Shown here piece by piece: positions 959 through 62,007 of a DNA stretch of 64,000 bases. Each line of letters opens with the position of its first letter. The first letter of the stretch is position 1. The translations under genes and the position numbers were made by a program. The stretch comes from Pontibacter qinzhouensis (GTDB lineage: Bacteria > Bacteroidota > Bacteroidia > Cytophagales > Hymenobacteraceae): assembly GCF_008017455.1 (NCBI RefSeq), contig NZ_VRTY01000020.1, positions 1 through 64,000 on the forward strand. Reading direction: 5' to 3'. Below the pieces are notes generated by a model. The model saw nothing but the letters and a program-made list of their open reading frames with translations. It did not search any database and had not been told where the DNA came from.

Positions 959-1015
959 AATTATTTGAATGAAAATAGCCTTCCAAAGCGAATTGGCCCT
1001 AAATTAGTCAAGGGT
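959..1015 (+). repeat. 57-bp intergenic repeat, copy 1
   Basis: Starts AATTATT and ends AAGGGT, with CCTTCCAAAG in the middle. It lies in a convergent gap and its AAGGGT end faces the GH28 gene, with the terminator hairpin between them. Confidence 0.85.
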
Positions 1016-1032
1016 AAATAGGCAGATAGTAC

Positions 1033-1079
1033 AAAAAAAGGTTCCTGCTTCAGTCTGATCTGAAGCAGGAACCTTTTTT
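1033..1079. terminator. Bidirectional intrinsic terminator
   Basis: A perfect stem of about 20 bp (arms 1033-1053 and 1060-1079) with a 6-nt loop is bordered by A-runs on one side and T-runs on the other. It lies between two convergent genes and can serve both. Confidence 0.9.
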
Positions 1080-1101
1080 ATAGATGTTTATCTCTAGAAA
1101 A

Positions 1102-8883: not shown

Positions 8884-8941
8884 AATTATTCTAATGAAAA
8901 TACCCTTCCGAAGGTAAAAAGACCATTAGGGTGCCAAGGGT
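8884..8941 (+). repeat. 57-bp intergenic repeat, copy 2
   Basis: 58 bp long, starts AATTATTCTAATG and ends AAGGGT. The AAGGGT end lies 5 bp from the stop codon of the minus-strand AraC gene, so in that transcript the element begins right after the stop. Confidence 0.85.
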
Positions 8942-10046: not shown

Positions 10047-10103
10047 AATTATTTAAATCAAAACCCCCTTCAGAAGGATTTTTATCAGAAACTCGTCAAG
10101 GGT
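10047..10103 (+). repeat. 57-bp intergenic repeat, copy 3
   Basis: 57 bp, AATTATTTAAATC to AAGGGT, with CCTTCAGAAGG in the middle. It lies between divergent genes; the AAGGGT end faces fucI. Confidence 0.8.
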
Positions 10104-17401: not shown

Positions 17402-17458
17402 AATTATTCAGACGAAAATGGCCTTCCAAAGCTATTTTACTAAAAAACGGCTTAGGGT
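17402..17458 (+). repeat. 57-bp intergenic repeat, copy 4
   Basis: 57 bp, AATTATTCAGACG to TAGGGT (one change at the end). It lies upstream of the pectate lyase. With copy 5 in the opposite orientation it flanks that gene. Confidence 0.8.
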
Positions 17459-19041: not shown

Positions 19042-19078
19042 CAAAAAGGCCAAGGGTTGTGTACCCTTGGCCTTTTTG
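19042..19078. terminator. Intrinsic terminator after pectate lyase
   Basis: A perfect 16-bp stem (19042-19057 with 19063-19078) around a 5-nt loop, with A-run and T-run sides. The right arm contains ACCCTTGG, which is also the end of 57-bp repeat copy 5. Confidence 0.9.
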
Positions 19079-19119
19079 CCTTTAATTTCCTTTGGAAGGG
19101 CAATTTCTTTAGAATAATT
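19063..19119 (-). repeat. 57-bp intergenic repeat, copy 5
   Basis: 57 bp, read on the minus strand from AATTATTCTAAAG to AAGGGT. Its AAGGGT end forms part of the right arm of the pectate lyase terminator. Confidence 0.8.
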
Positions 19120-19307: not shown

Positions 19308-20576
19308 TCAACGTTTACGGACTCCAAAATGCTTGTCGGCAAAATTCAGGTACTGCATCCAGTCGAACTCTGTTACATCGTGTTTGCCGGTGCGGATGTG
19401 GTAACCGATGCGGCCCTGAACAGACTGATTGAGTGGCGGGAAATCTGCTGCAGGCAAGCCTTCTGTGCCTAGAAAACGGTACACCGGATCAGCGGCTTTT
19501 GCTGCCAGAAATTCCCCGTAAGGGTCTGCTCCTCTGTCTTCCTCGGCACTGGCAATATAAAGTGGGCGAGGCGCTATAAGAGCCATTACCATGTGCTGGT
19601 CGAAGGGAAGAGCCTCTTCGTTTTTGTTGTACTTCTTAAAATTGGCAGCAAACCAATGCGGGTTGCCCCGAGTCAGCCGCTCCACATCTTCGCCATATTT
19701 TCTTTTAGACAAGGCCGCACCGCCGCCACCAGATTCGTTGCTGATGACCATGGCAAAACGCTCGTCGCGGGCTCCCGCCCACAAAGCAGCTTTACCCATT
19801 CTGGAGAAGCCGAAGAGCATCACCTTTTTCCCATCTACCTGCCGGTCTGTTTCCAGGTAATCGAGGGTACGGCTCAGGCCCCAGGCCCAGGCCGACATGG
19901 TGCTGAAATTATCGCCCCGATTTTGCAGCTCCGGGTACAGCGCGTGCACACCATTCTGAAAATTATCGTGTTTGTCAGGATCTATGTCATTGGCAAAAAC
20001 TGTGGCTACACCGTAACCTCGTTCCAAAATCAGTTCAATAGGCCAGCGGCTGGCCGTAGCTCCTCTCGATTTTTCGGTAGATATGTTGTTCACTACACCG
20101 GCACCGCCACCCCACACCCAGTTTGGCGATAGCTTTATGGCCGTATCGGTGTGCACCGCATGGTTTCCCTGGAAGTTGAGGCCCAGAAAAACCGGCACTT
20201 TTCCCTTCACCTGGTTGGGTAGGTATAGCAGGATATCCATTTTCGGACCATCTTGTCTGCCGGTGAAGTAAACTGTAATTTGTTTACGGGTTGCCTTGCC
20301 GTTAAGTGCTTGCGCATCCTGCTCAAAAACCTGAAATGTCATGTGTTCTGGCTTGCCGGGGGAGCGACCATACATCTCTTGTTCAAAAAGTTCAAGTATT
20401 TCAGCGCGTCGCTTTTTCTTCCATTGCCTCGTGTTTTTTACCTTGGTGCCATCCTCAAACACCAATGGATCGGGTAAAGCGTAAGGCTGCACCTTCTCCT
20501 CATCGAAGTTCTGAGCAGATGCAGGCAGTAAGGCGAGTACCGCTAACAGCAAAAGGAGAAGCTTTTTGTATGGCAT
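19308..20576 (-). CDS. CE15-type glucuronoyl esterase (alpha/beta hydrolase), secreted
   Basis: Enzymes of this family cleave esters of glucuronic or galacturonic acid in plant cell walls. A signal peptide (ending PASAQ) leads into an alpha/beta-hydrolase with the CE15 nucleophile motif GFSRMGK, the acid-region sequence SNESGGGGAA and a late His in the KHDVTEFDW segment. At 422 residues the length is typical. It converges with the pectate lyase, and ribB lies upstream on the same strand. It could instead act on pectin methyl esters; family placement is firmer than substrate. Confidence 0.85.
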   Translation of the reverse strand: MPYKKLLLLLLAVLALLPASAQNFDEEKVQPYALPDPLVFEDGTKVKNTRQWKKKRRAEILELFEQEMYGRSPGKPEHMTFQVFEQDAQALNGKATRKQITVYFTGRQDGPKMDILLYLPNQVKGKVPVFLGLNFQGNHAVHTDTAIKLSPNWVWGGGAGVVNNISTEKSRGATASRWPIELILERGYGVATVFANDIDPDKHDNFQNGVHALYPELQNRGDNFSTMSAWAWGLSRTLDYLETDRQVDGKKVMLFGFSRMGKAALWAGARDERFAMVISNESGGGGAALSKRKYGEDVERLTRGNPHWFAANFKKYNKNEEALPFDQHMVMALIAPRPLYIASAEEDRGADPYGEFLAAKAADPVYRFLGTEGLPAADFPPLNQSVQGRIGYHIRTGKHDVTEFDWMQYLNFADKHFGVRKR

Positions 20577-20602
20577 TAGAAAAGATTTGTGGATGGTACA
20601 AA

Positions 20603-20703
20603 CCTCATAGCGTCTTCCAGACCTGTGAGTGTTTCGATTGCGCAGTGCTCCATTTTTCTATGCAACCCCAGACATTCACAGGTCTGGAAGACACTGTGAG
20701 GTC
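20603..20703. repeat. Long inverted repeat, ACCTCAYAG family, copy 1
   Basis: Two 31-bp arms (20603-20633 and 20673-20703) are complementary at 28 of 31 positions, with a 39-bp spacer. A related element lies at 38372-38477. The left arm lies just upstream of the CE15 gene and the right arm abuts the ribB stop. Confidence 0.8.
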
Positions 20704-20708
20704 AGGTA

Positions 20709-21362
20709 CTACGCCAGCCCCTCATGTTTTTTCCGGTAGTCGATCAGGTCTTTGATGCTTACTAGTTTTAGGTTCAGCTTGTCTGCAATTTGGCGGAGTT
20801 CCGGCAGGCGGGCCATGGAGCCATCCTGGCTGAGTACTTCTACCAGCACACCAGAAGGTTTGAAACCTGCCAGACGAGCAAAATCTACGGTAGCCTCCGT
20901 ATGTCCGGGACGAGCCAACACACCGCCATTCCGGCTTTTGAGCGGAAAAATATGGCCTGGCGAACCGAGTTCTTCGGGCTTTGTGTTTGGGTCGATTAAC
21001 GCTTTAATCGTTTTGGAGCGATCTGAAGCGGAAATGCCGGTGGTACAGCCATGACCAATGAGGTCAACGGAAATGGTAAAGGCTGTTTCGTGCGAGGAAG
21101 TGTTGTTTTCGACCATCATCGGCAGTTCCAGCTTCTGGCAACGCTCTTCCGTTAGCGAAACACATATTAAACCACGGCCTTCTCTGGCCATAAAATTTAC
21201 GAGCGATGGCGTAATGCACTCCGAGGCGCAAATCATGTCGCCTTCATTCTCACGATCTTCGTCGTCTACTACAATTACTATTTTGCCGTCACGGATGTCG
21301 GCTATGGCTTCTTCAATGGTGTTCAATACAATTTGTCCAGTCTCTGGTTTATCCTGACCCAT
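20709..21362 (-). CDS. ribB: 3,4-dihydroxy-2-butanone-4-phosphate synthase
   Basis: The enzyme converts ribulose 5-phosphate to dihydroxybutanone phosphate and formate for riboflavin synthesis. The signature [16 protein letters not shown] lies near the start, with [12 protein letters not shown] and the closing [13 protein letters not shown] region. It is the stand-alone synthase of 217 residues without a GTP cyclohydrolase II half. I chose the ATG at 21362 (MGQDKPE); a longer frame from 21443 adds an unlike N-terminus. No FMN riboswitch is seen upstream. Placement among sugar genes looks incidental. Confidence 0.93.
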
Positions 21363-21882: not shown

Positions 21883-21940
21883 AATTATTCTAATGAAAAT
21901 GGCCTTCCAAAGGTAATTTTACCTCCGGAAGGCCAAGGGT
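21883..21940 (+). repeat. 57-bp intergenic repeat, copy 6
   Basis: 58 bp, AATTATTCTAATG to AAGGGT. This copy folds best: GGCCTTCC at 21901 pairs with GGAAGGCC at 21927, with a further 4-5 bp stem inside. The AAGGGT end lies 22 bp beyond the FGGY kinase stop. Confidence 0.85.
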
Positions 21941-28250: not shown

Positions 28251-28307
28251 AATTATTCTAATGATTTTGCCCTTCCAGAGGCTTTTTGGGGTAAGGCAAT
28301 TAAGGGT
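28251..28307 (+). repeat. 57-bp intergenic repeat, copy 7
   Basis: 57 bp, AATTATTCTAATG to AAGGGT. It is in tandem with copy 8, 101 bp apart, in the same orientation. Confidence 0.85.
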
Positions 28308-28408: not shown

Positions 28409-28465
28409 AATTATTCCAATGAAAACGCCCTTCCAAAGGCAAAAGCCTGTAAAATTGTCAAGGGT
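28409..28465 (+). repeat. 57-bp intergenic repeat, copy 8 (overlaps a stop codon)
   Basis: 57 bp, AATTATTCCAATG to AAGGGT. The minus-strand transketolase ends in AACCCTTGA, so its stop codon TGA lies inside the conserved end motif of the element. Confidence 0.85.
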
Positions 28466-32598: not shown

Positions 32599-33031
32599 TT
32601 CGGAAGGCGTAATTTATAAAATAATCCGAATACTTTGTTTTATTTTTTATTTTCTTCGTTTTGTTCTTTAATATGAGTAGGTATAAAGTATATCTGATAG
32701 ATGAACAATGCTTTAGAGAAAATAATTTCCGGTATTTTTTCTTTTGTTTTCTTTTATTTTTGCTATACTTGTATTAAATATCTTAAACAAGTAGTATAAC
32801 TTGTATTTACTCACAAGTGCCCCGCAACTATTACCTTCTTTTAGCGGGGAGCAGCAACAGCATCGGCAATTGTAGCCTGGTAGCATACATTTAAAATTGA
32901 TCTGTAATCTTTAGGAATAATTAAACTGATTGCAGCTGAAATAAGAGGAGCCGGTAACTCATAAGCGGTTTACGTGATAGGGGTTGCTAATAAAGCCTAA
33001 GCAAAAAATAGCGGAAAAATCTTTGGGAGAA

Positions 33032-33050
33032 CATTTTCATTTGAATAATT
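33032..33050 (-). repeat. Truncated 57-bp repeat (copy 10)
   Basis: Only the AATTATTCAAATG...AAAATG end is recognisable on the minus strand; the AAGGGT end is lost or diverged. Confidence 0.5.
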
Positions 33051-33322: not shown

Positions 33323-33379
33323 ACCCTTGGCGGAATTTAAGCCGGATTCCTTTGGAAGGCCATTTTTATTAGGATAATT
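33323..33379 (-). repeat. 57-bp intergenic repeat, copy 9
   Basis: 57 bp on the minus strand, AATTATCCTAATA to AAGGGT, with CCTTCCAAAGG. GGAAT and ATTCC in the variable half can pair. It lies upstream of susC 2. Confidence 0.85.
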
Positions 33380-38494: not shown

Positions 38495-38535
38495 AATTTA
38501 TTCTAATGAAAAAGGCCTTCCGTAGGCATTTTTAG
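38495..38535 (+). repeat. Partial 57-bp repeat (copy 11a)
   Basis: AATTTATTCTAATG then GGCCTTCCGTAGGC matches the conserved first half; the AAGGGT end is missing and TTAGATG low-complexity sequence takes over. Confidence 0.6.
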
Positions 38536-38621
38536 ATGTTAGATACTGGATTATAGATGTTAGATTTTTGTCTGAATCAGGATTTACAGGATAATCTCAG
38601 CTTTTTATATATGTGCTTCTT

Positions 38622-38648: not shown

Positions 38649-38691
38649 AAAAAATAATATCAAATTAACAATTCAGCAACCAACAACCAGC

Positions 38692-38748
38692 AATTATTCT
38701 AATGAAAATGCCCTTCCGAAGGCTTTTGCAGAGAAAAGTGCCAAGGGT
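38692..38748 (+). repeat. 57-bp intergenic repeat, copy 11
   Basis: 57 bp, AATTATTCTAATG to AAGGGT, preceded by a CAACAACCAG tract. GGC-TTTT and AAAA-G-TGCC in the variable half can pair with a small bulge. It faces the 3' end of the GH106 gene. Confidence 0.85.
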
Positions 38749-42371: not shown

Positions 42372-42961
42372 CAGGATGGATGAGATTTAATTAGTTAATG
42401 TAAACTGATTTTGAAATTCAAACCAAAATATGCTCTGGTGCATGAAATTAAAGGATAATGAGCGGACCCTTGGCAATATTTTAACAAAAACCTTTTCGAA
42501 GGGTATTTTCATTAGAATAATTTGAGTGTATAACCTTTAATAAGGCTCCTTGAAACAGGTTTCCAAATTCTTAGCGGCGGTTTTATCCAATGCCTTTGGG
42601 TTTTCATGTTTCATTGCTAGGGCTCCGAGCGCTCAAGGCCGCGGGGCCTCTTTCTTGGGCATCACGCTGCTGCATCTTTACTGCCCGCAAGCGGGCTGCC
42701 GCTCCCGCGACACCGGAAACCTGCAAAGGCGCTCAACCCAAGAACTGGGTTAGAATCGGTAGCCATGCTTATTGTTGTGCTTTGCCTTTAGCAAACCAGG
42801 AATATGTCATATACTACAATACTTCTGCCTCAAATAGCCATTCTCTGCCTGGAATTAGGCAGTGCACTGAATTGATTTTTAGAGCAGGCTTTAAATTTTT
42901 AAGAGCATCCTTCTGCTATCATTTCTAATTTTGAATTTCTAATTTTTAATTTTGCTCAGCA
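42372..42961. other. Intergenic region with 57-bp repeat and a GC-rich island
   Basis: No gene is seen. It holds repeat copy 12 and, from about 42600 to 42760, a GC-rich stretch unlike its surroundings (GCTCCGAGCGCTCAAGGCC; CCCGCAAGCGGGC palindrome). Short frames over the island look repeat-derived. The end is low-complexity TTTCTAATTTT. Confidence 0.55.
42466..42522 (-). repeat. 57-bp intergenic repeat, copy 12
   Basis: 57 bp on the minus strand, AATTATTCTAATG to AAGGGT. It lies 95 bp upstream of the GH106 start, AAGGGT end toward the gene; with copy 11 it flanks GH106 in inverted orientation. Confidence 0.85.
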
Positions 42962-45026: not shown

Positions 45027-45084
45027 ACCCTTGAGGCTTCCAGAGCATAAAAACCTTCTGAAGGGCAAAATCATTAGAATAATT
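45027..45084 (-). repeat. 57-bp intergenic repeat, copy 13
   Basis: 58 bp on the minus strand, AATTATTCTAATG to AAGGGT, with CCTTCAGAAGG. It lies 33 bp beyond the redoxin stop, reading AATTATT first in that transcript. Confidence 0.85.
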
Positions 45085-46372: not shown

Positions 46373-46748
46373 AGGTTGGGCAGAATACCTGCCAAATTAG
46401 AAATTAAAAATTAGAAATTGATGCTCCTGAAGCACATGCACATTGGCAATTAACCACATGAAAAGTGGAGCAGAAGCAACAGAACCTGTTATAGACAGCG
46501 ACAGTACTTCCTGGAAAAAAAGTTTTACGAAAAATACAAAAGAAAAAAAGTCATATGTCTTGAGTCGTGATACTTGTATCCTGTTTCCTGGAGAGATACA
46601 AATTCAATTTCCGATAAGTTATGACGCAGTCTATAGTGCTTGCTTTTTAATTGTAAATTTAAAAAAAATTAAGCGCTTGTAAGGATATCGGGTTTACGAT
46701 ATAGCCGAAACTGAAGCAGGCACCATTATAAACGAAGAAACAGCTGGC
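46373..46748. other. Divergent intergenic region without repeat copy
   Basis: No gene is convincing; a 79-codon frame at 46443 lacks similarity and has a low-complexity end. It begins with AAATTAGAAATT low-complexity units and should hold promoters for both neighbours. No 57-bp repeat is found here. Confidence 0.5.
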
Positions 46749-47672
46749 ATGGCTACTACAATAGAAGTACAAAAACTACATACACTTACCGGTCACCGCG
46801 ACTGCATTTACACCCTGGAGCCTTCCGGCGAGAACCATGTTGTTTTCTCGGCGGGCGGAGACGGTATGGTGGCCGCCTGGAACCTGAACGATCCCGAAAA
46901 TGGAGAACTGATAGCGCGTGTTACAAGCTCAGTTTACGCGCTCAGTTACGTGCCTTTCCGTAACCTGCTGCTGATAGGGCAGAACAACGAAGGCCTGCAG
47001 GTGATCGACCTCCAGAACAAAGCTATTTTAAAATCGGTGTCGCTGCCGAAAGTGGCCATTTTCGATATTAAATACAGCGCTTTGCTGAACAAGGTGTATG
47101 TGGCGCAGGGCAATGGCGGGGTTTGTATTTTAGCAGCCGATACCTTTGAGCTGCAAACCATTACCCGCAGCACCGACCAAAGCGCCCGTTCGCTGGCCCT
47201 GAACTCGCACACCCAGGAACTGGCCGTTGGCTACAGCGACAACAGCATCCGCATATTCGATGCGGCCACCATGCAGCTGAAGCACGAGCTGAAAAACCAC
47301 ACGAACTCGGTGTTTACAGTGGCCTATTCTCCTGAAGGCGACCTGCTTATAACAGGTGGCCGCGACGCGCACCTGCGGGTGTGGGAGGTGCAGCAGGGCT
47401 ACAAAGAGCGCGGCTATACTATAGCCCACATGTATACCATCAACCATATTGCCTATAGCCCCGATGGCCGCCATTTTGCCACCTGCAGCATGGATAAGTC
47501 GATAAAGATCTGGGATGCCCGCACCTTTAAGTTACTGAAAGTGATCGATAAAGTCCGGAATGCGAGTCATGGCACTTCCGTGAATAAATTATTTTGGACG
47601 GCTCATCATAATCAGTTAGTTTCGTGTAGCGATGATCGCACCATATCGGTCTGGGACATTAAATTGAGTTGA
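46749..47672 (+). CDS. WD40-repeat beta-propeller protein
   Basis: A 307-residue cytoplasmic protein made of about seven WD40 blades. Clear units include HTLTGHRDCIYTLEPSG, DGMVAAWNL, SDNSIRIFDAATMQ, ITGGRDAHLRVWEV, CSMDKSIKIWDA and CSDDRTISVWDI. It has no signal peptide or catalytic motif, so it is probably a scaffold. It lies directly before a DivIVA-domain protein (2-bp gap) and folB, so the first two are co-expressed and may act together in cell organisation. Confidence 0.9.
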   Translation: MATTIEVQKLHTLTGHRDCIYTLEPSGENHVVFSAGGDGMVAAWNLNDPENGELIARVTSSVYALSYVPFRNLLLIGQNNEGLQVIDLQNKAILKSVSLPKVAIFDIKYSALLNKVYVAQGNGGVCILAADTFELQTITRSTDQSARSLALNSHTQELAVGYSDNSIRIFDAATMQLKHELKNHTNSVFTVAYSPEGDLLITGGRDAHLRVWEVQQGYKERGYTIAHMYTINHIAYSPDGRHFATCSMDKSIKIWDARTFKLLKVIDKVRNASHGTSVNKLFWTAHHNQLVSCSDDRTISVWDIKLS

Positions 47673-47674
47673 AT

Positions 47675-48631
47675 ATGAAGATTACACCGTTAGAAATCAG
47701 GCAAAAAACATTTGAGAAGGCTTTCAGGGGTTTAGACAAGGATGAGGTAAATGCTTTTTTGCTGACCTTGTCGCAACAATGGGAAAAATTATTGGATGAG
47801 AACAAAGATCTGCGCAATAAGCTGGACACTGCTCACCGCGAAACCCAAAAGCTGCGCGAGGTGGAGTCATCTCTCTATAAAACACTTAAAACAGCCGAAG
47901 ATACCGGCAACAGCATATTAGAGCAGGCTACCAAATCGGCTGAGCTGAAAGCCCGTGAGGCACAGCTGCAGTCGGATGAGCTGCTGAACAAGGCCCGCAA
48001 CGAGGCACGCGCCCTTTTAGAGGATGCCAACCAAAAAGCAGGCAAAGTGCTGACCGAGATGCAGCAGGAGGTTAAAGCCCTGGAGCAGGATTACCAGCGC
48101 CTCGAAAGCTACCTCGACAGCATGGTGCGCGACCTTAAGAACCTGGCAAACGATGCGTTAGAGAAAGTTGAGAAGACAAACGCAAAACCTAAAGCTAACA
48201 CATTGAGTATTCTTTCAAGAGCAGTAGACGTAAAAGTACACACACCAGAGCTGCTGCATAACCTGAAAGAAATGAAAATAACAAGCGAAGATTTATACCC
48301 GGTAGCTGCCACGCCAGTTGCCCTGCAGATTGTAAATGAGGTAGAACCCTTTGGCGATCCTGCACCAGACGTTACACAACCAATCCCTGAAATTCCGAAC
48401 CCGGTAACGCCGGTTCCAACCATACCGGGCCCGGAAATTGAGCAACCGGAGCCGGATTACCCAGGTCGCATCCCCGGCCCGGAAATAGAGCAGCCGATAC
48501 CGGATATTCAACCAATTAAACCTGATGAGCCTGAAATACAGCCGCCTATGACGGAGCCATCCAGAAGCTACAGTCAGCAGCAGCAACCAGTAAAACAAAC
48601 CGCAGGTTCTTTCTTCGACGAGCTAGGGTAG
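47675..48631 (+). CDS. DivIVA-domain coiled-coil protein with proline-rich tail
   Basis: Residues 1-60 match the DivIVA/GpsB lipid-binding domain (ITPLEIRQKTFEKAFRGLDKDEVNAFL), followed by a long coiled coil to about residue 170. The last 100 residues are acidic and proline-rich with a repeated IPGPEIEQP unit, ending in SFFDELG. DivIVA proteins gather at curved or dividing membranes and recruit partners. I chose the ATG at 47675; a TTG at 47669 overlaps the WD40 stop. The folB gene starts 9 bp after its stop. Confidence 0.88.
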   Translation: MKITPLEIRQKTFEKAFRGLDKDEVNAFLLTLSQQWEKLLDENKDLRNKLDTAHRETQKLREVESSLYKTLKTAEDTGNSILEQATKSAELKAREAQLQSDELLNKARNEARALLEDANQKAGKVLTEMQQEVKALEQDYQRLESYLDSMVRDLKNLANDALEKVEKTNAKPKANTLSILSRAVDVKVHTPELLHNLKEMKITSEDLYPVAATPVALQIVNEVEPFGDPAPDVTQPIPEIPNPVTPVPTIPGPEIEQPEPDYPGRIPGPEIEQPIPDIQPIKPDEPEIQPPMTEPSRSYSQQQQPVKQTAGSFFDELG

Positions 48632-48640
48632 CAGAATAGC

Positions 48641-48997
48641 ATGGGACAAATTGCGCTGGAAGGCCTGGAGTTTTTCGCATTTCATGGGTATTACGACGAG
48701 GAACAGAAAATCGGCAACAAATACGGCATAGACCTGTTTTTGAGCACCGACCTGCGCCGTGCTGCCGAGTCTGATGACCTGCACCAGACTGTGAATTACG
48801 AAACGCTTTATGCGCTGGTAGTAGAAGAGATGAAAGTGCCTGCCAGGCTGCTGGAGCACCTGGGCCACCGGATCATAGATAAGATTTATGAACGGTTTCC
48901 GTTTGTAGAGTCGGTAAAGGTGCAGGTTTATAAGTTTAACCCTCCGCTTGGCGGCATCTGCAAGTGGGCCAAGGTTACCCTGGAAGAGGCACGTTAA
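48641..48997 (+). CDS. folB: Dihydroneopterin aldolase
   Basis: The enzyme converts dihydroneopterin to hydroxymethyl-dihydropterin and glycolaldehyde in folate synthesis. The family features are LEFFAFHGYYDEEQKIGNKY with the active-site Glu, VNYETLYALV in the middle and a late VKVQVYKFNPP. At 118 residues it is full length. It closes the WD40-DivIVA-folB unit, whose other members have no known link to folate. Confidence 0.93.
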   Translation: MGQIALEGLEFFAFHGYYDEEQKIGNKYGIDLFLSTDLRRAAESDDLHQTVNYETLYALVVEEMKVPARLLEHLGHRIIDKIYERFPFVESVKVQVYKFNPPLGGICKWAKVTLEEAR

Positions 48998-49152
48998 AAA
49001 TTTAGAATATGATAACAGAAGCAGCTGGTTTTAAAGAAGTCAGCTGCTTTTGCTTTTGAAGGAAACAGTGTTGTTTTATGTATCTTTAATATGCAGGAAC
49101 TGCGTTCTTTCATTATTACGACTGCTTCATTTCATATTTACTTAAGAGACCT

Positions 49153-49530
49153 ATGGAAATTCCGAAAACACACCAGAACGTAATGCCTTACCTGATGCTG
49201 GCGGGGGCAAATAAATTTAAAGCTTTCGTAAGTGCCGTGTTTGGAGCTCAGGAAACCTACAGCGCCATGCGCGATGCAGACCATATTATGCATGCCGAAG
49301 TGCAGCTAAACGGCAGCACCATTATGTACTGCGATGCCACCGAGCAATGGAAGCCGCAAACAGCCAACCTGTTTGTGTACGTAGAAGATGCCAACCAAAC
49401 CTACCAGCTCGCCCTCGACAATGGCGCAAGTTCTGTAACAGAGCCAGCCGACCAGGAATACGGCCGAAGCTGCGGCGTAACCGACCCGACAGGCAATGTG
49501 TGGTGGATAACATCAGTGCTGAAAAAGTAA
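49153..49530 (+). CDS. VOC-superfamily (glyoxalase/PhnB-like) protein
   Basis: 125 residues with the paired beta-alpha-beta units of the vicinal oxygen chelate superfamily: VMPYLMLAGANKFKAFVSAVFGA at the start, HAEVQLNGSTIMYCD in the middle and the closing GVTDPTGNVWWI. The PhnB-like branch has many members of unknown function. The stop is followed after 6 bp by repeat copy 14. It is single and co-directional with folB, 155 bp apart. Confidence 0.85.
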   Translation: MEIPKTHQNVMPYLMLAGANKFKAFVSAVFGAQETYSAMRDADHIMHAEVQLNGSTIMYCDATEQWKPQTANLFVYVEDANQTYQLALDNGASSVTEPADQEYGRSCGVTDPTGNVWWITSVLKK

Positions 49531-49536
49531 CGATCG

Positions 49537-49593
49537 ACCCTTGGAGGAAAATGAGCAAAATACCTTCAGAAGGCTGTTTTCATTTGAATAATT
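49537..49593 (-). repeat. 57-bp intergenic repeat, copy 14
   Basis: 57 bp on the minus strand, AATTATTCAAATG to AAGGGT. Its ACCCTTGG end starts 6 bp after the VOC gene stop. Confidence 0.85.
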
Positions 49594-49708
49594 TGAGAAA
49601 GGCAGATGTGGTAAGTTGTTGATTTAATGATGTGGAAATTTGAAGATATTTGAGCTTTGCTTGATGGGAGAAAAGAGAATATAGCCAGAATTTGAAAAAA
49701 TCTCACTG

Positions 49709-49729
49709 CCGCGAGCTTTCAGCTCGTGG
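49709..49729. repeat. CCGCGAGCT palindrome
   Basis: CCGCGAGCT-TTC-AGCTCGTGG, a 9-bp near-perfect stem (one G:T pair), related by core to the element at 49893; an AACTTGCG unit follows 12-25 bp later. Confidence 0.6.
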
Positions 49730-49861
49730 TAGTACATGGGAGTTTTTAACTTGCGTAAACCACTACTTAAATCAAAGATCAACTCAAGGCTTTCCGCTAG
49801 TGCTAGGTTAATGTCATTTTCTGCTTAAACTAAAATGGAAAGTATCTACTAATGTCCTGCT

Positions 49862-49930
49862 TCCGGAAGTTAAAAACTTGCCTCATTTTGTACCGCGAGT
49901 TACGGCTACGCCTAAACTCGCGGCAGAAGT
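49862..49930. repeat. Double-palindrome repeat, copy 2 (CGCGAGTT type)
   Basis: GGAAGTT-AAAAACTTGCC is followed by a hairpin with CCGCGAGTT and AACTCGCGG arms (49893-49923) and loop ACGGCTACGCCTA. Loop and layout match 19159-19226; the arms differ in compensating fashion (CAAGTT/AACTTG there, CGAGTT/AACTCG here). Confidence 0.75.
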
Positions 49931-49959
49931 AACTAGTGCCTGAATATTCTCGACACTCA

Positions 49960-50017
49960 AATTATTTAAATACTTTTGCCCTTCCAAAGCCATTTTAACT
50001 GCAAACACCTCCAGGGC
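49960..50017 (+). repeat. 57-bp intergenic repeat, copy 15 (diverged end)
   Basis: 58 bp, AATTATTTAAATA to CAGGGC; the end motif has two changes. It lies 14 bp before the start codon of the 94-residue protein gene. Confidence 0.7.
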
Positions 50018-50031
50018 GTATAACCAATGCT

Positions 50032-50316
50032 ATGAACCTAACGACCTTCAAAGAAAGTCTTTCTGCTACAGCGCCACCTGCTGGTATATCGGTTTACCTG
50101 CAGGCGCTTTGGTTCGATGCCAAAGGCAACTGGGAAAAAGCACACGTGCTCGTCCAGGCCCTACCCGATAAAAATGCTGCCTGGATACACGCCTACCTGC
50201 ACCGCAAGGAAGGTGATGCCTGGAACGCTGACTACTGGTACCGGAGAGCCAGCAAAACCAGGCCTGCCGTTACGCTGGAAGAAGAGTGGGAGGGATTGCT
50301 AAAAGTGCTTTTATAG
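50032..50316 (+). CDS. Small conserved protein of unknown function
   Basis: A 94-residue soluble protein with WFDAKGNWEKAH, WIHAYLHRKEGDAWNADYWYRRA and a Trp-rich end. The spacing of Trp, His and Tyr and the helical character suggest a TPR-like fold. I recognise this type from other Bacteroidota genomes but cannot name a function. There is no signal peptide. It starts 14 bp after repeat copy 15, leaving almost no room for a separate promoter unless the repeat contributes to it. Confidence 0.75.
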   Translation: MNLTTFKESLSATAPPAGISVYLQALWFDAKGNWEKAHVLVQALPDKNAAWIHAYLHRKEGDAWNADYWYRRASKTRPAVTLEEEWEGLLKVLL

Positions 50317-50400
50317 ATAGTGAGTCAGCATGTTGCTATTTTTGCACTGATGTACTAGTTGCTTTGTCTCACAATTTACCACAACGATGGAAGATCCACA

Positions 50401-50850
50401 ATGACAGTTTCATTTGACCTGGATGGTACACTTATTCCGTTTCAAGAAGACGATTTTGCTACAGAAAAGAGAAATTTTTTTCAACGCCTGATAGGAATAG
50501 AACCGATTAGAATGGGAGCTACATTCTTATTTAAAGAATTGAATCGTAGAGGACACAAAGTCGGGATCTATACAACCTCCTATCGCAATATTACCTGGAT
50601 CAGGTTTCAACTTCTGACCTATGGCATCAGAACCGATTTTGTTATAAATGAAGCACTTAATCGTGCCAAATTACAGACTAAGAACCTTAGTTGCTCTAAA
50701 TATCCTCCAGCATTTAATATTGATCTACATATAGATGATGCAGCAGGTGTTGCGATAGAAGGAGAAAAACTTAATTTTAAAACCATTCTATTGTTGAAGA
50801 ATGATCTTGATTGGTTGGATAAAATAATAAATACATGTAATGATAACTAG
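50401..50850 (+). CDS. HAD-superfamily hydrolase-like protein
   Basis: 149 residues with the HAD nucleophile motif DLDGT (Asp6 and Asp8) at the start, a threonine/serine motif IYTTSYRN near residue 60, and a late acidic motif HIDDAAG near 116. This fits a small HAD phosphatase, close to the haloacid dehalogenase-like group. I chose the ATG at 50401, so the motif lies at the usual distance from the start. The codon use is visibly more AT-rich than in neighbours, hinting at recent transfer. Substrate unknown. Confidence 0.75.
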   Translation: MTVSFDLDGTLIPFQEDDFATEKRNFFQRLIGIEPIRMGATFLFKELNRRGHKVGIYTTSYRNITWIRFQLLTYGIRTDFVINEALNRAKLQTKNLSCSKYPPAFNIDLHIDDAAGVAIEGEKLNFKTILLLKNDLDWLDKIINTCNDN

Positions 50851-50939
50851 GTTGCTTCTGCAACTTAACCTTTTCTTAACAATAGACTTCTTGCATTGCC
50901 TGGCAACCATAAATTTCAGCATCGTATATTTAACCTCTG

Positions 50940-51428
50940 ATGAGAGAGGAAAAGAAAAACACCCCAAAGCAGGAAAAAAAAATTATCGGGAGGCGCGAAC
51001 GTGTGTCGTTTCCTGAGCTTGATCTGGCCGAGATTGAGGCTAAGATCGATACAGGTGCCTATACCTCGGCTATTCATTGCTCCGACATACACGAAGAAGT
51101 GCTGGTAGACGGTACCAAGGTCATAAGCCTGGACCTGCTGGACCCTTCGCACCCGCAATACAACCATCGTAGGTTAACATTTAAACACTATGCCTTCCGC
51201 GATATAAAAAGCTCGAATGGGGAGGTGCAGCAGCGGTATGTTATCCGTACCCGCATTAAGTTTTTCGATGAGGAAATTGAAGCAGAGTTTTCGCTCTCAG
51301 ATCGCAGCGACATGAAATACCCGGTGCTGATTGGCCGGACATTGTTGCGGGGCCGGTTTATTGTGGATGTTTCCCGTAAAAACGTCGGTAAAAAAACTAA
51401 CATCAAACAGAAAAAAAATCTTTTATGA
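50940..51428 (+). CDS. RimK-linked retropepsin-like putative ATP-dependent zinc protease
   Basis: A 162-residue protein of the family often annotated as ATP-dependent zinc protease and found next to rim[12 protein letters not shown] (residues 36-46) is a pepsin-like DTG motif and suggests an aspartic-protease fold; the zinc label in databases is older. The [20 protein letters not shown] segment closes the domain. Its stop overlaps the rimK start (ATGA), so translation is coupled. It probably acts on the peptide linkage made by the RimK-type ligase. Confidence 0.85.
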
Positions 51429-52333
51429 AAATAGCCATTCTCTCCCGCAACCCAAAGCTGTACTCTACCAAACGACTGGTAGAAGCAGCAGAGCAGCGGG
51501 GGCACGAGGCCGTAGTACTCGATCATTTGCGCTGCGACCTGATAGTGGAGCAAGGAAACCCGCACATCCTGTACAAAGGTGAGCGACTGACCGGCTTCGA
51601 TGCTGTAATTCCCCGAATAGGGGCTTCGGTTACTTTTTACGGAACAGCCGTAGTGCGCCAGTTCGAAATGATGAAAGTAAAAAGCATTGTAGGCTCCCAG
51701 TCCATTGTGCGTTCCCGCGATAAGCTGCGCAGCCTCCAGATTCTGGCACGTGCCGGGCTGGGCATGCCTAAAACAGCTTTTACGAACTACTCCAAAGAAA
51801 CCTCTGAATTGGTAAAAGAAGTAGGCGGAGCCCCGCTGGTGATTAAACTGCTGGAAGGTACGCAGGGCCTGGGCGTGGTGCTGGCCGAAACCAAGAAAGC
51901 CGCTGAGTCGGTAATAGAGGCTTTCCATAACCTAGAGGCGCGTATTATTGTACAGGAGTTTGTGGCAGAGGCAGGCGGAGCCGACATAAGGGCTTTTGTA
52001 GTAAATGGTGAGGTAGTAGGTGCCATGAAACGCCAGGGCAAAGAAGGTGAGTTTCGCTCTAACCTGCATCGTGGCGGCAAGGCAACGCTCATAAAACTAT
52101 CGCGCCAGGAAAAAGCCGCTGCTTTGCTAGCAGCTAAATCGCTCGGCCTGAACGTAGCCGGTGTAGACATGCTGCAGTCGAAACGCGGACCTCTTATTCT
52201 GGAAGTAAACTCTTCGCCAGGACTGGAAGGAATAGAGAAAGCCACACAAAAAGATATAGCCGGAAAAATAATAGAATTTACAGAAGAGCTTGTAAAACGG
52301 AAGCTCACCAAAAAGAAAGACGTAAGCGAGTAG
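51425..52333 (+). CDS. rimK: RimK-family ATP-grasp alpha-L-glutamate ligase
   Basis: This ATP-grasp ligase adds glutamate residues to the C-terminus of ribosomal protein S6 or to another acceptor. The family start is [18 protein letters not shown]; the ATP-grasp core has [19 protein letters not shown] and the metal region ends with [15 protein letters not shown]. At 302 residues it matches RimK length. It lies between the retropepsin-like protease and an AstE-type deacylase, one base from the latter. In such clusters the acceptor need not be S6. Confidence 0.9.
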
Positions 52334-52334
52334 C

Positions 52335-53276
52335 ATGCCAGAAACCATAACCATAAACGGGAGGTCAATAGACAGAGGTGAGAAAGTACTCACGAAACTA
52401 AATATTTCGAAGCTGCCGAGCGGCACCGTAATTGAAATACCAGTGTACGTGTTCCGGTCGGTGCACGATGGGCCGGTAGTACTGCTCATGGCCGGCATGC
52501 ACGGCGACGAGGTAAACGGCATCGAGATCATCAGGCGCATGCTGGGCAAAAAGATGCTGTACCCGCTCAGAGGCACTATAATCGCTGTGCCCATTCTCAA
52601 CATCTATGGTTTTCTGAACTTCTCGCGCGATGTGCCCGATGGCAAAGATGTGAACCGCAGCTTTCCGGGGCGTAATGAAGGCTCACTTGCCAGCCGGGTG
52701 GCTTACCGGTTTATGAAAGAAGTGATGCCTTACATCGATTACGGCATTGATTTTCATACGGGCGGATCGAGCCGATCTAACTACCCGCAAATTCGGTGCG
52801 TGCTCGATTATCCTAAAAACGTGGAGCTTTCGCAGGCATTTGGTGCTCCTTTTGTGCTCGATGCCAGTTTCCGGACCGGCTCGCTCCGGAAAGAAGCCTG
52901 GAAGCACGGCAAGACTATTCTGGTGTACGAGGCAGGTGAATCGTTGCGGTTTGATGAAGTGGGCATTTGCACTGGCATAGAAGGTACCTGCCGGTTTCTG
53001 CACCACCTGGGCATGATGGCAGGTGCTCCGGCAGCTGCGCAAGAACCAGTAGTCTGTCACAAAGATGTCTGGATACGGGCAAAGAATGCAGGGCTTTTCA
53101 GAAGTATTGTGAGGACAGGGGAGCAGGTGAAAAAGAACCAGTTATTAGGAACCATTACCGATCCGTATGGCGAAATGGAGGTGAAGATAATAGCTACTTC
53201 AGCAGGCTATATCATCGGACTGAACAACATGCCTGTAGTAAACCAGGGCGATGCACTGGTGCATATTGCTTTTTAA
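52335..53276 (+). CDS. Succinylglutamate desuccinylase/aspartoacylase-family zinc hydrolase
   Basis: An M14-like zinc carboxypeptidase-fold amidohydrolase. Zinc ligands are His56 and Glu59 in MHGDEVNG and a later His in DFHTGGSS near residue 140; the catalytic Glu is likely in VYEAGES near 200. The C-terminal 80 residues form a small beta domain (RAKNAGLFRSIVRTGEQVKK...). It starts one base after the rimK stop. No arginine-succinyltransferase genes are nearby, so it probably trims an acyl- or glutamyl-amide bond made by RimK rather than acting in arginine catabolism. Confidence 0.88.
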   Translation: MPETITINGRSIDRGEKVLTKLNISKLPSGTVIEIPVYVFRSVHDGPVVLLMAGMHGDEVNGIEIIRRMLGKKMLYPLRGTIIAVPILNIYGFLNFSRDVPDGKDVNRSFPGRNEGSLASRVAYRFMKEVMPYIDYGIDFHTGGSSRSNYPQIRCVLDYPKNVELSQAFGAPFVLDASFRTGSLRKEAWKHGKTILVYEAGESLRFDEVGICTGIEGTCRFLHHLGMMAGAPAAAQEPVVCHKDVWIRAKNAGLFRSIVRTGEQVKKNQLLGTITDPYGEMEVKIIATSAGYIIGLNNMPVVNQGDALVHIAF

Positions 53277-53509
53277 ATTAGAAGCTAGATTAGATTTTAG
53301 ATGCTAGAAATTTAAACTTGATGGCATTATTTGCGATTACTAATCTACCAACATTTGCTTGTAAACTTTGCAGTGAAAACTCAGTTTTAGGTGTAACAAT
53401 GGTCAGGCACAAAAAAGGAGAACTCCAATTAAAGAGTTCTCCTTTTTTGTGCCTGAAGCACCTTCATATTGCTGAAACAATCTAGTATCTAGTATCTAAA
53501 TTCTAGAAC
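53277..53509. repeat. TAGAT-unit low-complexity repeats flanking a terminator
   Basis: Short TTAGATGCTAGA-like units at 53277-53314 and their reverse-type ATCTAGTATC units at 53479-53509 flank the terminator. Similar units lie at 38536-38573 and 55151-55200; they appear to be a loose repeat class. Confidence 0.45.
53404..53455. terminator. Bidirectional intrinsic terminator
   Basis: A perfect 22-bp stem (53404-53425 with 53434-53455) around an 8-nt loop, with six A and six T bases in its arms, between convergent genes. Confidence 0.92.
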
Positions 53510-54882: not shown

Positions 54883-55207
54883 GGTGGCGTTGTTTTAGAG
54901 TGCTTCAGCGGGAGTAGAGTAATGGGGAGGGTGCTGAACGTTGCATCACCCTTGACTCTTTTTTGCTCAAAAACCCTCGGAAGGCTGTTTTTGTTAGAAT
55001 AATTGCTGGATGTTAATTGCTGATTGTGAAATGGTTTAATGGTTGATGTGGAGATGGGAAGAGTTGAAAATCTGAAGATGGAGAAGATAATTTTTGATTG
55101 AGTGCATGAGTGTATAAGATCATGAAAACTATTTAACTCCTAAAGCTCTAAAATCTAATATCTAATATCTAATATCAAATATCAAAAATCTAGTAGCTAA
55201 CATCTTT
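54883..55207. other. Intergenic region with repeat copy 16 and low-complexity units
   Basis: No gene is seen. Repeat copy 16 is followed by the A-rich/T-rich tract (55005-55051) linked to several copies, and by TCTAATA tandem units at 55151-55200. Confidence 0.6.
54948..55004 (-). repeat. 57-bp intergenic repeat, copy 16
   Basis: 57 bp on the minus strand, AATTATTCTAACA to AAGGGT; 65 bp upstream of the methyltransferase start, AAGGGT end toward it. Preceded, on its own strand, by the CAATTAACATCCAGC tract. Confidence 0.85.
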
Positions 55208-56824: not shown

Positions 56825-57140
56825 GGTATGTGCGTTAATTTATGCTGCTGTTGTACAAAGCTACAGAAATAGCGGTTGGGGTAAAAGCAGAATCTGTTAT
56901 TGTTGGGACTGCGCCTGCTGGTGGCTACGGACCATTTTAAATATACGCAGGCAGAAAAGAAGCTTCATTAATTAAGAGTTAAAAGTTATGAGTTAAACTG
57001 CCTCTCGATCAAAACTGCCCATGGCAAAGGCAACAATTTAGCCATTTAACAATCAACAACTAACAGTTCACAACCAGCAATTATTCAAATGAAAACAGTC
57101 TCCAGAAGGATTTTAGCCTTCAAAATGCCAAGGGTATAAG
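56825..57140. other. Intergenic region with repeat copy 17 and A-rich tract
   Basis: No gene is seen. An AACAATCAACAACTAACAG tract (57032-57078) leads directly into repeat copy 17. Confidence 0.6.
57079..57135 (+). repeat. 57-bp intergenic repeat, copy 17
   Basis: 57 bp, AATTATTCAAATG to AAGGGT; GAAGG and CCTTC in the middle can form a 5-bp stem with a 7-nt loop. Its AAGGGT end lies 5 bp beyond the outer-membrane protein stop. Confidence 0.85.
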
Positions 57141-59039: not shown

Positions 59040-59759
59040 GTAATGGTCAGTGGATATCCGGTTAGGGTTTAACCTCCCAATATAACGTATTCTTTCAGAT
59101 TTTATGTTACGTTTTTGATGAGTATTTGAGTAAGAATTTGTACAACTGGCACGGTTTAGGGTACGCTGGCAGGTTAACCAAATAAAAGCGTGGCGGAAGG
59201 AGTGACCAAGGAAAAGTATGAATGAGTGGATTGTGGTGCCAAATTGGGAAAAGTGAGACCATTCTAGCACGGGCTTTTCCTTTTTGTGCTACTGCCTGTA
59301 AGCTAAAAAGCAGTTGTAACCCATTCTGAGCCAATTACGAGCCGGTGAGTTGGCTAAACATTACGCTGCCATAGCTGTGGCACGATTTTGTAAATAGGTT
59401 CTTTGTCAATCTGGTACAAACTGGTGTGCTGCACAGGTTATTGGTGAAAGCTCTTTGAAATCTGTGAAGCCTAGTACCCTTGACCATTTTTAGGGAAGAT
59501 ATCTTCTGAAGGCTCATTTCATTTAAATAATTCAGCTTCGTTTTTATGCCTCAGGGAGAGTGCAGCAGGTAGCGTGCCTTAAGGCTAAAAGTGGGCATTA
59601 AATCAATTTTAGGCGAGATTATTGAATAATATGTTATGCTAATATTATTAGTTTAAGGTGCTTTGTGGAAAACAATGTGAATAACTTTTGCTAATTTTAA
59701 TAGTTTTAATTTTCTGCAACTGCTATCTTTAAAACATCAAAGACGGACATAAGCGCTAG
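59040..59759. other. Divergent intergenic region upstream of the radical SAM gene
   Basis: No gene is seen. It contains repeat copy 18 and is very AT-rich from 59600 to 59750. It should hold promoters of both flanking units. Confidence 0.55.
59476..59532 (-). repeat. 57-bp intergenic repeat, copy 18
   Basis: 57 bp on the minus strand, AATTATTTAAATG to AAGGGT; the variable half contains the palindrome GAAGATATCTTC. AAGGGT end faces the outer-membrane protein gene. Confidence 0.85.
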
Positions 59760-61025
59760 ATGGACAATAAGATAACTGATAAACTAAGAATATTAGCAGA
59801 TGCTGCCAAGTACGATGTTTCTTGTTCTTCGAGTGGAGGAAAACGGAAGAACGAGAACAAGGGGCTGGGAAATGCAGAGGGCATGGGCATCTGCCATAGT
59901 TATACCGAAGATGGTCGTTGTGTTTCGTTGTTAAAGATACTGCTGACGAATTTCTGCATCTTCGATTGCGCCTACTGTGTTACCCGGAAAAGCAACGATA
60001 TAAAACGGGCAGCTTTTACGGTTCAGGAAGTAGTAGACCTGACCATTAATTTTTACCGCCGCAATTACATAGAAGGGCTTTTCTTAAGCTCCGGCATTTT
60101 TAAAAATGCCGACTATACCATGGAGCGGCTGGTGCGGGTGGCCAAAAAGCTGCGGCAAGAAGAAAAGTTTAACGGTTACATTCATTTAAAGACAATACCA
60201 GGTGCCAGCGAAGAGCTTATAAAAGAAGCCGGCCTGTATGCCGACAGGTTAAGTGTGAATATTGAGCTGCCATCGGAGAAAAGTCTGAAGCAGTTGGCTC
60301 CGGAAAAGAATTACGCAGAGGTGCTGCAGCCGATGGGGGCTATCAGCAAGCAACTGGTGCTGGCAAAAGAAGAGCAGAAACTGTTTAAATCGGCTCCCGC
60401 GTTTGCTCCGGCCGGACAGAGCACACAGCTTATAGTAGGGGCCTCGGCTGAAGACGACCGGCAGATACTGCAGCTCTCGAACCAGCTATATAAAGGCTAC
60501 AACCTGAAACGGGTATATTATTCTGGCTACGTGCCTATTAGCACCGACATTCGGTTACCTATTATAACCGAGCCTCCCATTATCCGCGAAAACCGCATTT
60601 ACCAGGCCGACTGGCTCATGCGTTTTTATGGGTTCGATGTACAGGAGATTGTGGATGAGCAGCATCCAAACCTCGACCTCGATATAGATCCGAAACTGTC
60701 GTGGGCGTTGCGTAACAGGCATGCGTTTCCGGTGGAGTTGAACACAGCCGATTATGAGCTCATTTTGAGGGTGCCGGGCATAGGAGTGAAGTCGGCAAAG
60801 AAAATAGTGTCGGCAAGGCGGTTTGCGCCCCTGCAGTTCGATCACCTGCGCAAAATGGGCGTGGTGCTGAAGCGGGCCAAATATTTTGTTACCTGCCAGA
60901 CCAAAAGCCTGCAGCGCCAGGACTTTGACTCACACTACATTCGCCAGAAGATACTTTTTGGTGGTGGCTCCGTTAGGAGCGCCCTACTGACGCAGCAGCT
61001 CGACTTGTTTCAGCAGGCCAGTTAG
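59760..61025 (+). CDS. Putative DNA modification/repair radical SAM protein
   Basis: A 421-residue radical SAM protein of the group commonly paired with a DUF4130 partner and sometimes with a uracil-DNA glycosylase domain. Cluster cysteines are Cys66, Cys70 and Cys73 in NFCIFDCAYCVTRKSND. The N-terminal SCSSSGGKRKNE region and the C-terminal helix-hairpin-helix (ELILRVPGIGVKSAKKIVSARRF, near residue 330) suggest DNA binding. Substrate is not established; a DNA lesion is likely given the HhH and the partner. The partner gene starts 982 bp downstream, with repeat copy 19 between, an unusually wide gap. Confidence 0.87.
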   Translation: MDNKITDKLRILADAAKYDVSCSSSGGKRKNENKGLGNAEGMGICHSYTEDGRCVSLLKILLTNFCIFDCAYCVTRKSNDIKRAAFTVQEVVDLTINFYRRNYIEGLFLSSGIFKNADYTMERLVRVAKKLRQEEKFNGYIHLKTIPGASEELIKEAGLYADRLSVNIELPSEKSLKQLAPEKNYAEVLQPMGAISKQLVLAKEEQKLFKSAPAFAPAGQSTQLIVGASAEDDRQILQLSNQLYKGYNLKRVYYSGYVPISTDIRLPIITEPPIIRENRIYQADWLMRFYGFDVQEIVDEQHPNLDLDIDPKLSWALRNRHAFPVELNTADYELILRVPGIGVKSAKKIVSARRFAPLQFDHLRKMGVVLKRAKYFVTCQTKSLQRQDFDSHYIRQKILFGGGSVRSALLTQQLDLFQQAS

Positions 61026-61126
61026 AGTTGCCTCTATTTGCAAATAAGGCTTTAGCTGAAAAGAAAATGATTCATGGTACAAACAATTCAGACATTAAAA
61101 TTTGTAACACTCAAAAAGAAAAGATC

Positions 61127-61255
61127 ATGAGAAATAACACAAAAGTTGCCCGCATTACCTGCTACTGCAAACTCAACATGTTGGTTCCTCACCTGCAGCG
61201 CCTTACCTCCGGCTTGCAAACCGATTCTAAACAGCAAAAGGCCAAATCTAACTAA
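61127..61255 (+). CDS. Possible 42-residue basic peptide (hypothetical)
   Basis: A short frame with ATG preceded by AAAAGAAAAGATC, which could act as a weak ribosome-binding site. The product is basic, with CYC near residue 12 and a lysine-rich end. I recognise no family. It lies 101 bp after the radical SAM gene in the same direction. Low confidence; it may be chance. Confidence 0.3.
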   Translation: MRNNTKVARITCYCKLNMLVPHLQRLTSGLQTDSKQQKAKSN

Positions 61256-62007
61256 ATACCTCTACCATTACTATGGCTCCGTACGCACCTCATTAAGTTT
61301 GCAACTTGCAGTAAACGCACTTAAACAGCTCGCTTTTATAAGGTTTGTTCGGGCGCAGGAGGTTTTAAACCTATTACCGGTTCTTCCATTTTTACTTTTA
61401 CAACCTGCTCCAGCTTCACAAAGCTTTTTTAGTTACCAGATTTTAATCCGCCGAAATTCACCATGAAAGAAATACAACTTCAAGTGGTGAGACAAACATC
61501 TTCTGCCTGCTATTAAAGGGTAATGATGCCTTAAGAACGGAAGGTAAAGCCGTGGTTTTGAAAGGGAGGCAGTACCTGCAGAAAGTAGCAGGTTTATATT
61601 GGCACTAAAACTAAGCAGAGTAGCTTCACAGAAAGTGCATGGTTTTTGATACCCACTTTTGCTGTTAGGCGCTTAACCCTGAAACAAGCTTACTTTTAAT
61701 CTGGCAATATGTAAAAATGATACCCACATGGAGAAGACAAGATTTTTTCTGCGGAAGCTTTTAGGTTTACTTGCTATGCTGATGGCTTACCTAAAGTAGC
61801 CGCTGCTTTTAAATTATTTAAATGAATAAGCCCTTCCAACGCTAAAAAGGCTAAAATAGGTCAAGGGTAAAAGCTAGGCCCATCTCCACCGCCTGATCTG
61901 GCGCTAAAACATAAGCTACAGGTTCTGCTTGTAACTCTTCGGGATATTTGCCCGAAGGAGATAATTGGTGCGCACCAGAAGTGTGTGGCTGGCAAAATAC
62001 TATATTC
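61256..62007. other. Intergenic region between radical SAM gene and its DUF4130 partner
   Basis: No gene is clear; a 106-codon frame at 61146 overlaps the small-peptide frame and looks non-coding. It contains repeat copy 19. Confidence 0.5.
61812..61868 (+). repeat. 57-bp intergenic repeat, copy 19
   Basis: 57 bp, AATTATTTAAATG to AAGGGT; 139 bp before the DUF4130-type gene, AAGGGT end facing it. Confidence 0.85.

Follow-up and report, generated by a model that had tools for sequence, protein, structure and literature searches.

Repetitive extragenic palindromic (REP) sequences and their REPIN forms, which go with RAYT transposases, are described as short, present in many copies, intergenic, enriched at 3' ends and retained vertically for long periods (PMC8049555, PMC3733652). 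All of these features are shared by a repeat family that we analysed starting from a 64,000-nucleotide stretch of the Pontibacter qinzhouensis genome (contig NZ_VRTY01000020.1, positions 1 to 64,000; hereafter the window). This element differs from REPs and REPINs in being 57-58 bp long and asymmetric, without a supported hairpin or a clear RAYT tie, and in having A/T tracts and a sharp far end; it also has about ten times more copies than the REPINs of E. coli, for which a minimum of 96 and a mean of 156 are given in PMC8049555. Like miniature inverted-repeat transposable elements (MITEs) it is a short non-autonomous repeat with a few inverted forms in a second species, P. beigongshangensis T6-1; unlike them, its standard copies lack terminal inverted repeats, no convincing target duplication was found among the copies sampled and no partner transposon was recognised in the part examined. 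The uptake signal sequences (USS) of Pasteurellaceae and DNA uptake sequences (DUS) of Neisseriaceae resemble it in having more than 1,000 copies, dialects in sister species and occasional inverted pairs (PMC7811141, PMC3630211), the USS also in combining a core with AT tracts (PMC7811141), but the element is much longer, rare in genes and without a background of weak matches there, and it resides in Bacteroidota. We give roughly an even chance to the view that its copies are sites recognised by a protein, forming a REPIN-like population that is inherited vertically and has a dialect in each species.

The search covered 148 genomes, 50 of them of the genus Pontibacter (which we take to belong to the Hymenobacteraceae), that is the P. 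qinzhouensis genome (a 6.2-Mb draft in 220 contigs) and 147 relatives. A 30-bp core pattern with at most 3 mismatches has 1,508 matches (757 + 751) in P. qinzhouensis and none when read backwards; among the 147 relatives the bulk of its matches is in P. beigongshangensis only (1,001), with a single match in each of eight others. A slightly wider core pattern yields 1,605 matches in P. qinzhouensis (1 when reversed) and 1,737 in P. beigongshangensis, with 0-3 in each of the other 48 genomes of the genus, near the reversed control (0-2). Copies were then sampled from 828 kb of P. qinzhouensis (13%; 260 copies) and 1,319 kb of P. beigongshangensis (about 23%; 434 copies), the reversed control giving none. 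The first-pass annotation of the window, made from its letters alone, had described an intergenic family of constant length and expected hundreds of copies in the genome, and this is borne out: copies exceed 1,000, almost all of them lie between genes, and the length peak is kept. The search of other genomes that it proposed found a second species, the range being narrower than supposed (two species of 148 genomes). The window has no Rfam match at gathering score, viral contigs contain no exact match, and 2,685 plasmid records have short matches (27 bp at 92.6% among the matches listed), none covering 80%, which we read as chance. Literature searches returned nothing on Hymenobacter intergenic repeats, one unrelated plant review on Pontibacter repetitive extragenic sequences, and otherwise nothing on this repeat family among the matches listed.

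With genes called by a simple script of our own, only 7/260 sampled copies in P. qinzhouensis and 15/434 in P. beigongshangensis overlap a gene. Among gaps of 100 bp or more, those between convergent genes contain a copy most often (45/63 and 81/99, respectively), those between tandem genes less often (127/242 and 183/407) and those between divergent genes least often (24/72 and 36/114), an intergenic preference like that of REPs (71% vs 33% for convergent and divergent gaps in P. qinzhouensis). Neighbouring copies less than 400 bp apart (mostly 100-250) share their direction in 30/49 and 74/119 cases; more distant neighbours show no preferred direction (92 same and 105 opposite; 162 and 143), which is evidence against a polar guide like the FtsK-orienting polar sequences (KOPS) or Chi.

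The element is old by position. In the first 28 syntenic gaps compared between the two species it is present in both in 16, in neither in 11 and in P. beigongshangensis only in 1; nine further gaps from two more stretches gave 3 with it in both, 5 in neither and 1 in P. qinzhouensis only. In these 37 gaps, each 100 bp or longer, the two species thus agree in 35 (19 both, 16 neither, 1+1 discordant; Fisher p = 2e-8), and orientation agrees in 25/26 gaps with one direction per side, some of the loci having been fetched because they hold a copy. Among loci fetched with a copy in P. beigongshangensis, P. qinzhouensis also has one in 11/14. The divergence across which these slots are shared is considerable: identity at 10,672 fourfold sites is 54.7% (Jukes-Cantor distance 0.70), where saturation would be 27%. 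One part of the window (46700-53300), which is not syntenic with P. beigongshangensis contig C66, matches all five relatives tested and hence gives no date.

Over the same divergence the cores have stayed intact. At 16 conserved core positions, copies match the shared consensus in 96.6% (P. qinzhouensis) and 94.9% (P. beigongshangensis) of cases, where a neutral site would by estimate match at about 0.72, whereas at the free core positions the members of 14 orthologous pairs are 52.9% identical vs 44.8% for random pairs (SD 4.9%), so that ancestral identity there is nearly lost. Core scores are bimodal, 220/254 and 315/421 intergenic positions above 16 bits reaching at least 36 bits; at 8-16 bits there are 2 vs 2 in the control in each genome, and half copies number 3 and 0 beside 260, and 4 and 1 beside 434. 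The cores have thus decayed, but only to a limited degree. In P. qinzhouensis the 18-bp interiors have a nearest-neighbour identity (13.09 vs 13.05 simulated) like that of independent draws, which implies little recent copying. Gene conversion between copies would also level the free positions and is therefore probably not the main keeper of the cores.

In the same slots, the two species carry different versions. Positions 23/28 read TA in 234/260 P. qinzhouensis copies and CG in 301/434 P. beigongshangensis copies, and the orthologous pairs have their species' own form in 12/14 and 11/14. The AAGGGT end is found in 197/260 copies vs 3/434 (10 vs 0 among the 14 pairs); the P. beigongshangensis tail has no sharp end and is rich in CTG (mean 2.75 in positions 31-70 vs 0.51), a few P. 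qinzhouensis copies also having CTG-like tails. Copies have thus changed in step, each species having its own dialect, which suggests some protein reader. A third member of the genus, genome G028, carries a different high-copy family, CTGCACCTGCCACCAYAGCCTCTGCTSCT, about 30 bp long and also found as inverted pairs (e.g. loci L077-L081), with 1,338 matches to a 24-base pattern (34 copies in 100 kb) and 0-9 in each of 49 other genomes. In 13 listed syntenic gaps the element is present in 3 (1 of these with the G028 repeat) and the G028 repeat in 3; inspection by eye, with no requirement that the gap match on either side, places G028 repeats in 4/6 regions showing G028 sequence. The G028 family may be that organism's own unrelated signal, which would make three relatives with three dialects. 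Among the 50 Pontibacter genomes searched, the rest have neither the element nor the G028 signal at high copy, and 40 or 80 kb of each of six other genus members showed no 12-mer at five or more places, a weak test in that it also missed the P. beigongshangensis family in 80 kb.

Constraint on the element is laid out along double-stranded DNA. The core is 32 bp long (AATTATTYNAATGAAAANNSCCTTCCRAAGG) with a small dyad at 21-31, followed by two A/T tracts (33-36 and 43-46) with a spacing of one helical turn, and by a sharp GYCAAGGGT end at 57 or 58. Of the 260 P. qinzhouensis copies, 156 have the end motif at 57, 39 at 58, two at 51 and one at 68, and 62 lack it; none is 56 bp long, and a control span of equal width has the motif four times. 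The extra base of the 58-bp copies (41 by a slightly different rule) is scattered over the whole span from position 20 on, 3.5/41 being expected beyond position 50. The spacing constraint proposed at first from the fixed length is thus supported by a sharp 57-58 bp peak; the accompanying idea that the last half varies almost freely fails, since column counts in P. qinzhouensis copies show constraint at 33-36, 43-46 and 49-57. The outside sequence, taken to be unconserved, is not entirely so: 88 P. qinzhouensis copies with the end motif avoid A at -2 (3%) and T at -1 (6%), as do 132 P. beigongshangensis copies, and left flanks resemble each other beyond simulation (16.82 vs 15.65). The tracts consist of A runs or T runs and contain far fewer TA steps than expected (4/145, 10/121 and 20/105 vs 14.5, 46.7 and 57.2), an avoidance that rigid A-tract DNA would yield. 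Similar DNA shapes are described for the uptake signal of H. influenzae (PMC7811141). A fold constraint, the other option first offered, found no support in base-pair covariation, folding excess or RNAalifold pairs. RNAalifold predicted no pair among the 18 full window copies, in which the drawable stem (21-24 with 28-31) pairs no more than its column make-up allows, with zero compensated changes; in the 156 P. qinzhouensis copies of 57 bp each pair of this stem is within 0.01 of expectation, no column pair covaries as a base pair, and mutual information exceeds the null maximum only at up to 2 columns apart. Folding z-scores on the two strands (80 copies each) are +0.20 and -0.05 in P. qinzhouensis and -0.21 and -0.28 in P. 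beigongshangensis (SE 0.11-0.17). Columns 34-45 of the CTG-rich P. beigongshangensis tail covary with one another at distances of up to 8 columns and with a periodicity of 3 bases (among the top 40 pairs listed), which we read as repeat, not pairing. The constraint sits in the DNA, and an RNA fold was ruled out, there being no compensating pairs and no folding excess over shuffles.

Two observations concern the surroundings of copies. Ten copies drawn from the longest matches (P. qinzhouensis contigs C112, C13, C1, C90, C24 and C57) have common sequence for about 55 bp on the left (AAGTACATGCAAG...TTTCAGTGG) and 30 bp on the right (CTACCC...), and may represent a larger element that carries the repeat and has ends of its own. 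An A/C-rich stretch (AACAATTAACAATCAACAACCAGC) lies just upstream of many copies, for example at window 38660-38691.

The 18 full and two partial copies first reported for the window were all found again, the full ones with starts agreeing within one base, by a matrix built from the first 32 bases of 14 of these 18 copies themselves; each window copy scores at least 31 bits, against a top score of 16.7 over 20 mononucleotide shuffles. Fourteen full copies are 57 bp long and four 58 bp; they begin AATTATT except for one AATTATC, and 16/18 end in AAGGGT. Those on the plus strand are at 959..1015, 8884..8941 (58 bp), 10047..10103, 17402..17458 (TAGGGT end; the syntenic gap of P. beigongshangensis contig C66 also has the element), 21883..21940 (58 bp), 28251..28307 and 28409..28465 (first and second members of a pair), 38692..38748 (second member of a pair), 49960..50017 (58 bp, CAGGGC end), 57079..57135 and 61812..61868. 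Those on the minus strand are at 19063..19119 (its AAAAAGGCCAAGGGT end is one arm of a terminator-like hairpin), 33323..33379 (AATTATC start), 42466..42522, 45027..45084 (58 bp), 49537..49593, 54948..55004 and 59476..59532. Both partial copies, 38496..38527 (+, core only, then a TAGATGTTAGA-type tail) and 32994..33050 (-), have intact cores (36.3 and 35.6 bits) and have lost the 3' end motif. Low-complexity tails after some copies (TAGATGTTAGACGCTAGATG, AAGACGCAGGACATAAGACG) and a TTTGTCTGAATCAGGATTTACAGGATT repeat occur in both species (window 38520-38620; P. beigongshangensis C1 467143). Another repeat, with arms like CTCACAGCGTCTTCCAGACCTGTGAGTGT, is found at window 20553-20709 and 38351-38480 and in several gaps here and in P. 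beigongshangensis, where one copy of the element lies inside such a repeat.

How could such a population be kept? The repeat is likely to have spread in the common ancestor of P. qinzhouensis and P. beigongshangensis, probably as a miniature non-autonomous element moved by transposition, and its movement would then have mostly ceased. The sites would since have been read as double-stranded DNA by a putative sequence-specific protein in contact with them, each copy being held by selection, perhaps through some benefit to the host, or by a recognition-driven process, so that recognised positions would stay and flanks and free positions drift. A shift in the specificity of the recogniser between the two species would have produced the two dialects. 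We rank a DNA-binding reader first because the constraint is one of fixed spacing on double-stranded DNA, because cores are kept singly and because the species differ in step. Facing inverted forms of 52-73 bp in P. beigongshangensis hint at a REPIN- or MITE-like past.

Several observations weigh against this reading. No candidate for the reader was found, the HU-family count being 2 in all six genomes tested and therefore uninformative. The 16 conserved positions were chosen from the same data on which they are tested. Weaker intergenic copies exist (34 and 106 at 16-36 bits in P. qinzhouensis and P. beigongshangensis; at 0-8 bits, 16 vs 4 and 18 vs 11 in the control), and the end motif is missing in 62 or 63 of 260 copies, depending on the rule, 23/63 retaining AAGG there. 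Some mobility is likely, as the closest pair of copies (55/57) is only 140 bp apart and the next (54/57) is on different contigs, the maximum of 55 comparing with 50.6 simulated, and as cores in P. beigongshangensis are slightly more alike than simulated (30.36 vs 30.00, SD 0.08), with 11 facing inverted pairs of 52-158 bp among 434 copies there. Slot length partly confounds the comparison of gaps: those with the element in both species are 186-1371 bp long, those with it in neither 117-1312 bp and mostly short (28 gaps). G+C content is 0.494 in P. beigongshangensis vs 0.469 in P. qinzhouensis, so that the change at 23/28 may in part be due to mutation bias. The motif holds 65.1 bits of information (somewhat inflated, from the 156 copies selected by end motif), five times the 12.9 needed for 1,605 sites, which requires several contacts or past copying; this excess is easier to reconcile with several readers, or with copies descended from one another, than with a single factor.

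One alternative is continued low-rate copying by a transposase, in which the element would be a REPIN/RAYT-type or MITE family whose conserved parts are what the transposase needs, with no host function. This seems unlikely. A persistence of millions of years is stated for REPIN populations (PMC8049555) and a preference for convergent over divergent gaps for REPs (PMC3733652), and the few near-identical copies, the slight excess of likeness and the 11 facing inverted pairs in P. beigongshangensis agree with it, as do Y1 transposases in all 8 genomes tested. Against it, some genomes have RAYTs but not the element, standard copies lack symmetry, there are few half copies and presence agrees in 35/37 slots. 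Facing pairs of 40-160 bp number 2 among 260 copies in P. qinzhouensis and 10-11 among 434 in P. beigongshangensis, so that the two-unit hairpin form of REPINs is not that of the family at large, and the standard ends, AATTATT and AAGGGT, are not the terminal inverted repeats of a MITE. Of the 11 Y1 matches in the two species, 10 loci were fetched (5/5 and 5/6) and the flanks of 8 properly read; most carry other palindromes, and the element is within about 60 bp of 2/10, which its density alone could give by estimate. No clear tie to a RAYT was found in these loci. A RAYT-like Y1 transposase gene lies about 7 kb beyond the window (P. qinzhouensis C113:70736-70999), with its own palindromes nearby. 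A search for empty sites by joined flanks, with at most 694 copies sampled, gave only weak and unconvincing matches (7, from 6 copies), and in the 828 kb of 6.2 Mb examined, by spacing only, no full insertion sequence with the element's ends was recognised; outward core pairs 0.5-3.5 kb apart (20 and 36) enclose genes of many sizes in the first 12 of each species. An inverted-repeat element of roughly 200 bp, with ends like CTCATCTTGTAGGG, found within the core dyad, occurs in P. beigongshangensis (C3 12845, C4 84107, C2 24730 and others; loci L150, L160, L143), flanked left and right by CTCCGGAG or similar in some of the six copies aligned, which looks like insertion with target duplication. 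Drive would act if the element were a DNA uptake signal, preferred by a receptor of naturally competent Pontibacter cells, with transformation bias (molecular drive) keeping copies and yielding dialects, which we hold to be unlikely. The intact cores, independent interiors and species-wide shifts fit it, but few copies lie in genes (7/260, 15/434) and weak matches show no excess there. To our knowledge 57 bp and 65 bits are far beyond any uptake signal, and we know of no report of competence in Pontibacter, no literature search having been made for one. The copy number resembles that of the H. influenzae USS (1,465 cores), which also joins a core to rigid, slightly bent AT tracts (PMC7811141), and sister-species dialects and inverted pairs are known for DUS (PMC3630211); intragenic DUS, however, are common according to the latter source, so that intragenic copies with many near variants would be expected, which the element lacks. 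A ComEC homologue in all six genomes tested says little, being present in 10/14 control genomes as well.

An RNA element (terminator, attenuator or 3'-end stabiliser) would suit the reverse complement often found closely after stop codons, the small dyad with its T run, the predominance of copies in convergent gaps and a terminator-like site to the right on the opposite strand (9% and 8% vs 4% of random positions), but it is highly improbable in view of the lack of compensatory change and the folding scores near 0 on both strands. Beside tandem genes the element takes both orientations (70 co-directional and 94 opposite in P. qinzhouensis, 100 and 159 in P. beigongshangensis), and the tract at 43-46 uses A or T runs freely, which RNA pairing or a U-run would presumably forbid. 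It is very unlikely that two related elements with different tails were inserted independently into the same slots after the split. The wholly different tails, with the end motif in 197/260 vs 3/434 copies, speak for such insertions, as do the greater length of most shared slots and the only rough agreement in distance from core to neighbouring terminator (81/92, 82/94 and, in a third slot, 45/21, for P. qinzhouensis and P. beigongshangensis); orientation, however, agrees in 25/26 slots, the slot pairs are slightly more alike than random at free core positions, and recent insertion would leave common interiors, none of which is seen in P. qinzhouensis.

On the boldest reading, which is unlikely, Bacteroidota would here have their first signal for self-recognition (a 'dialect'), a 57-bp sequence read by an uptake receptor or another self/non-self recogniser at more than 1,000 ancestral sites and rewritten per species. 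Most bacterial repeats known to us are recent and alike, or else old and in decay. This element is old by position with its core intact, its free positions nearly unrelated and a concerted change at a thousand sites between two species, a combination that calls for a trans-acting reader or drive, and that makes it testable by what means repeats scattered over bacterial genomes are maintained.

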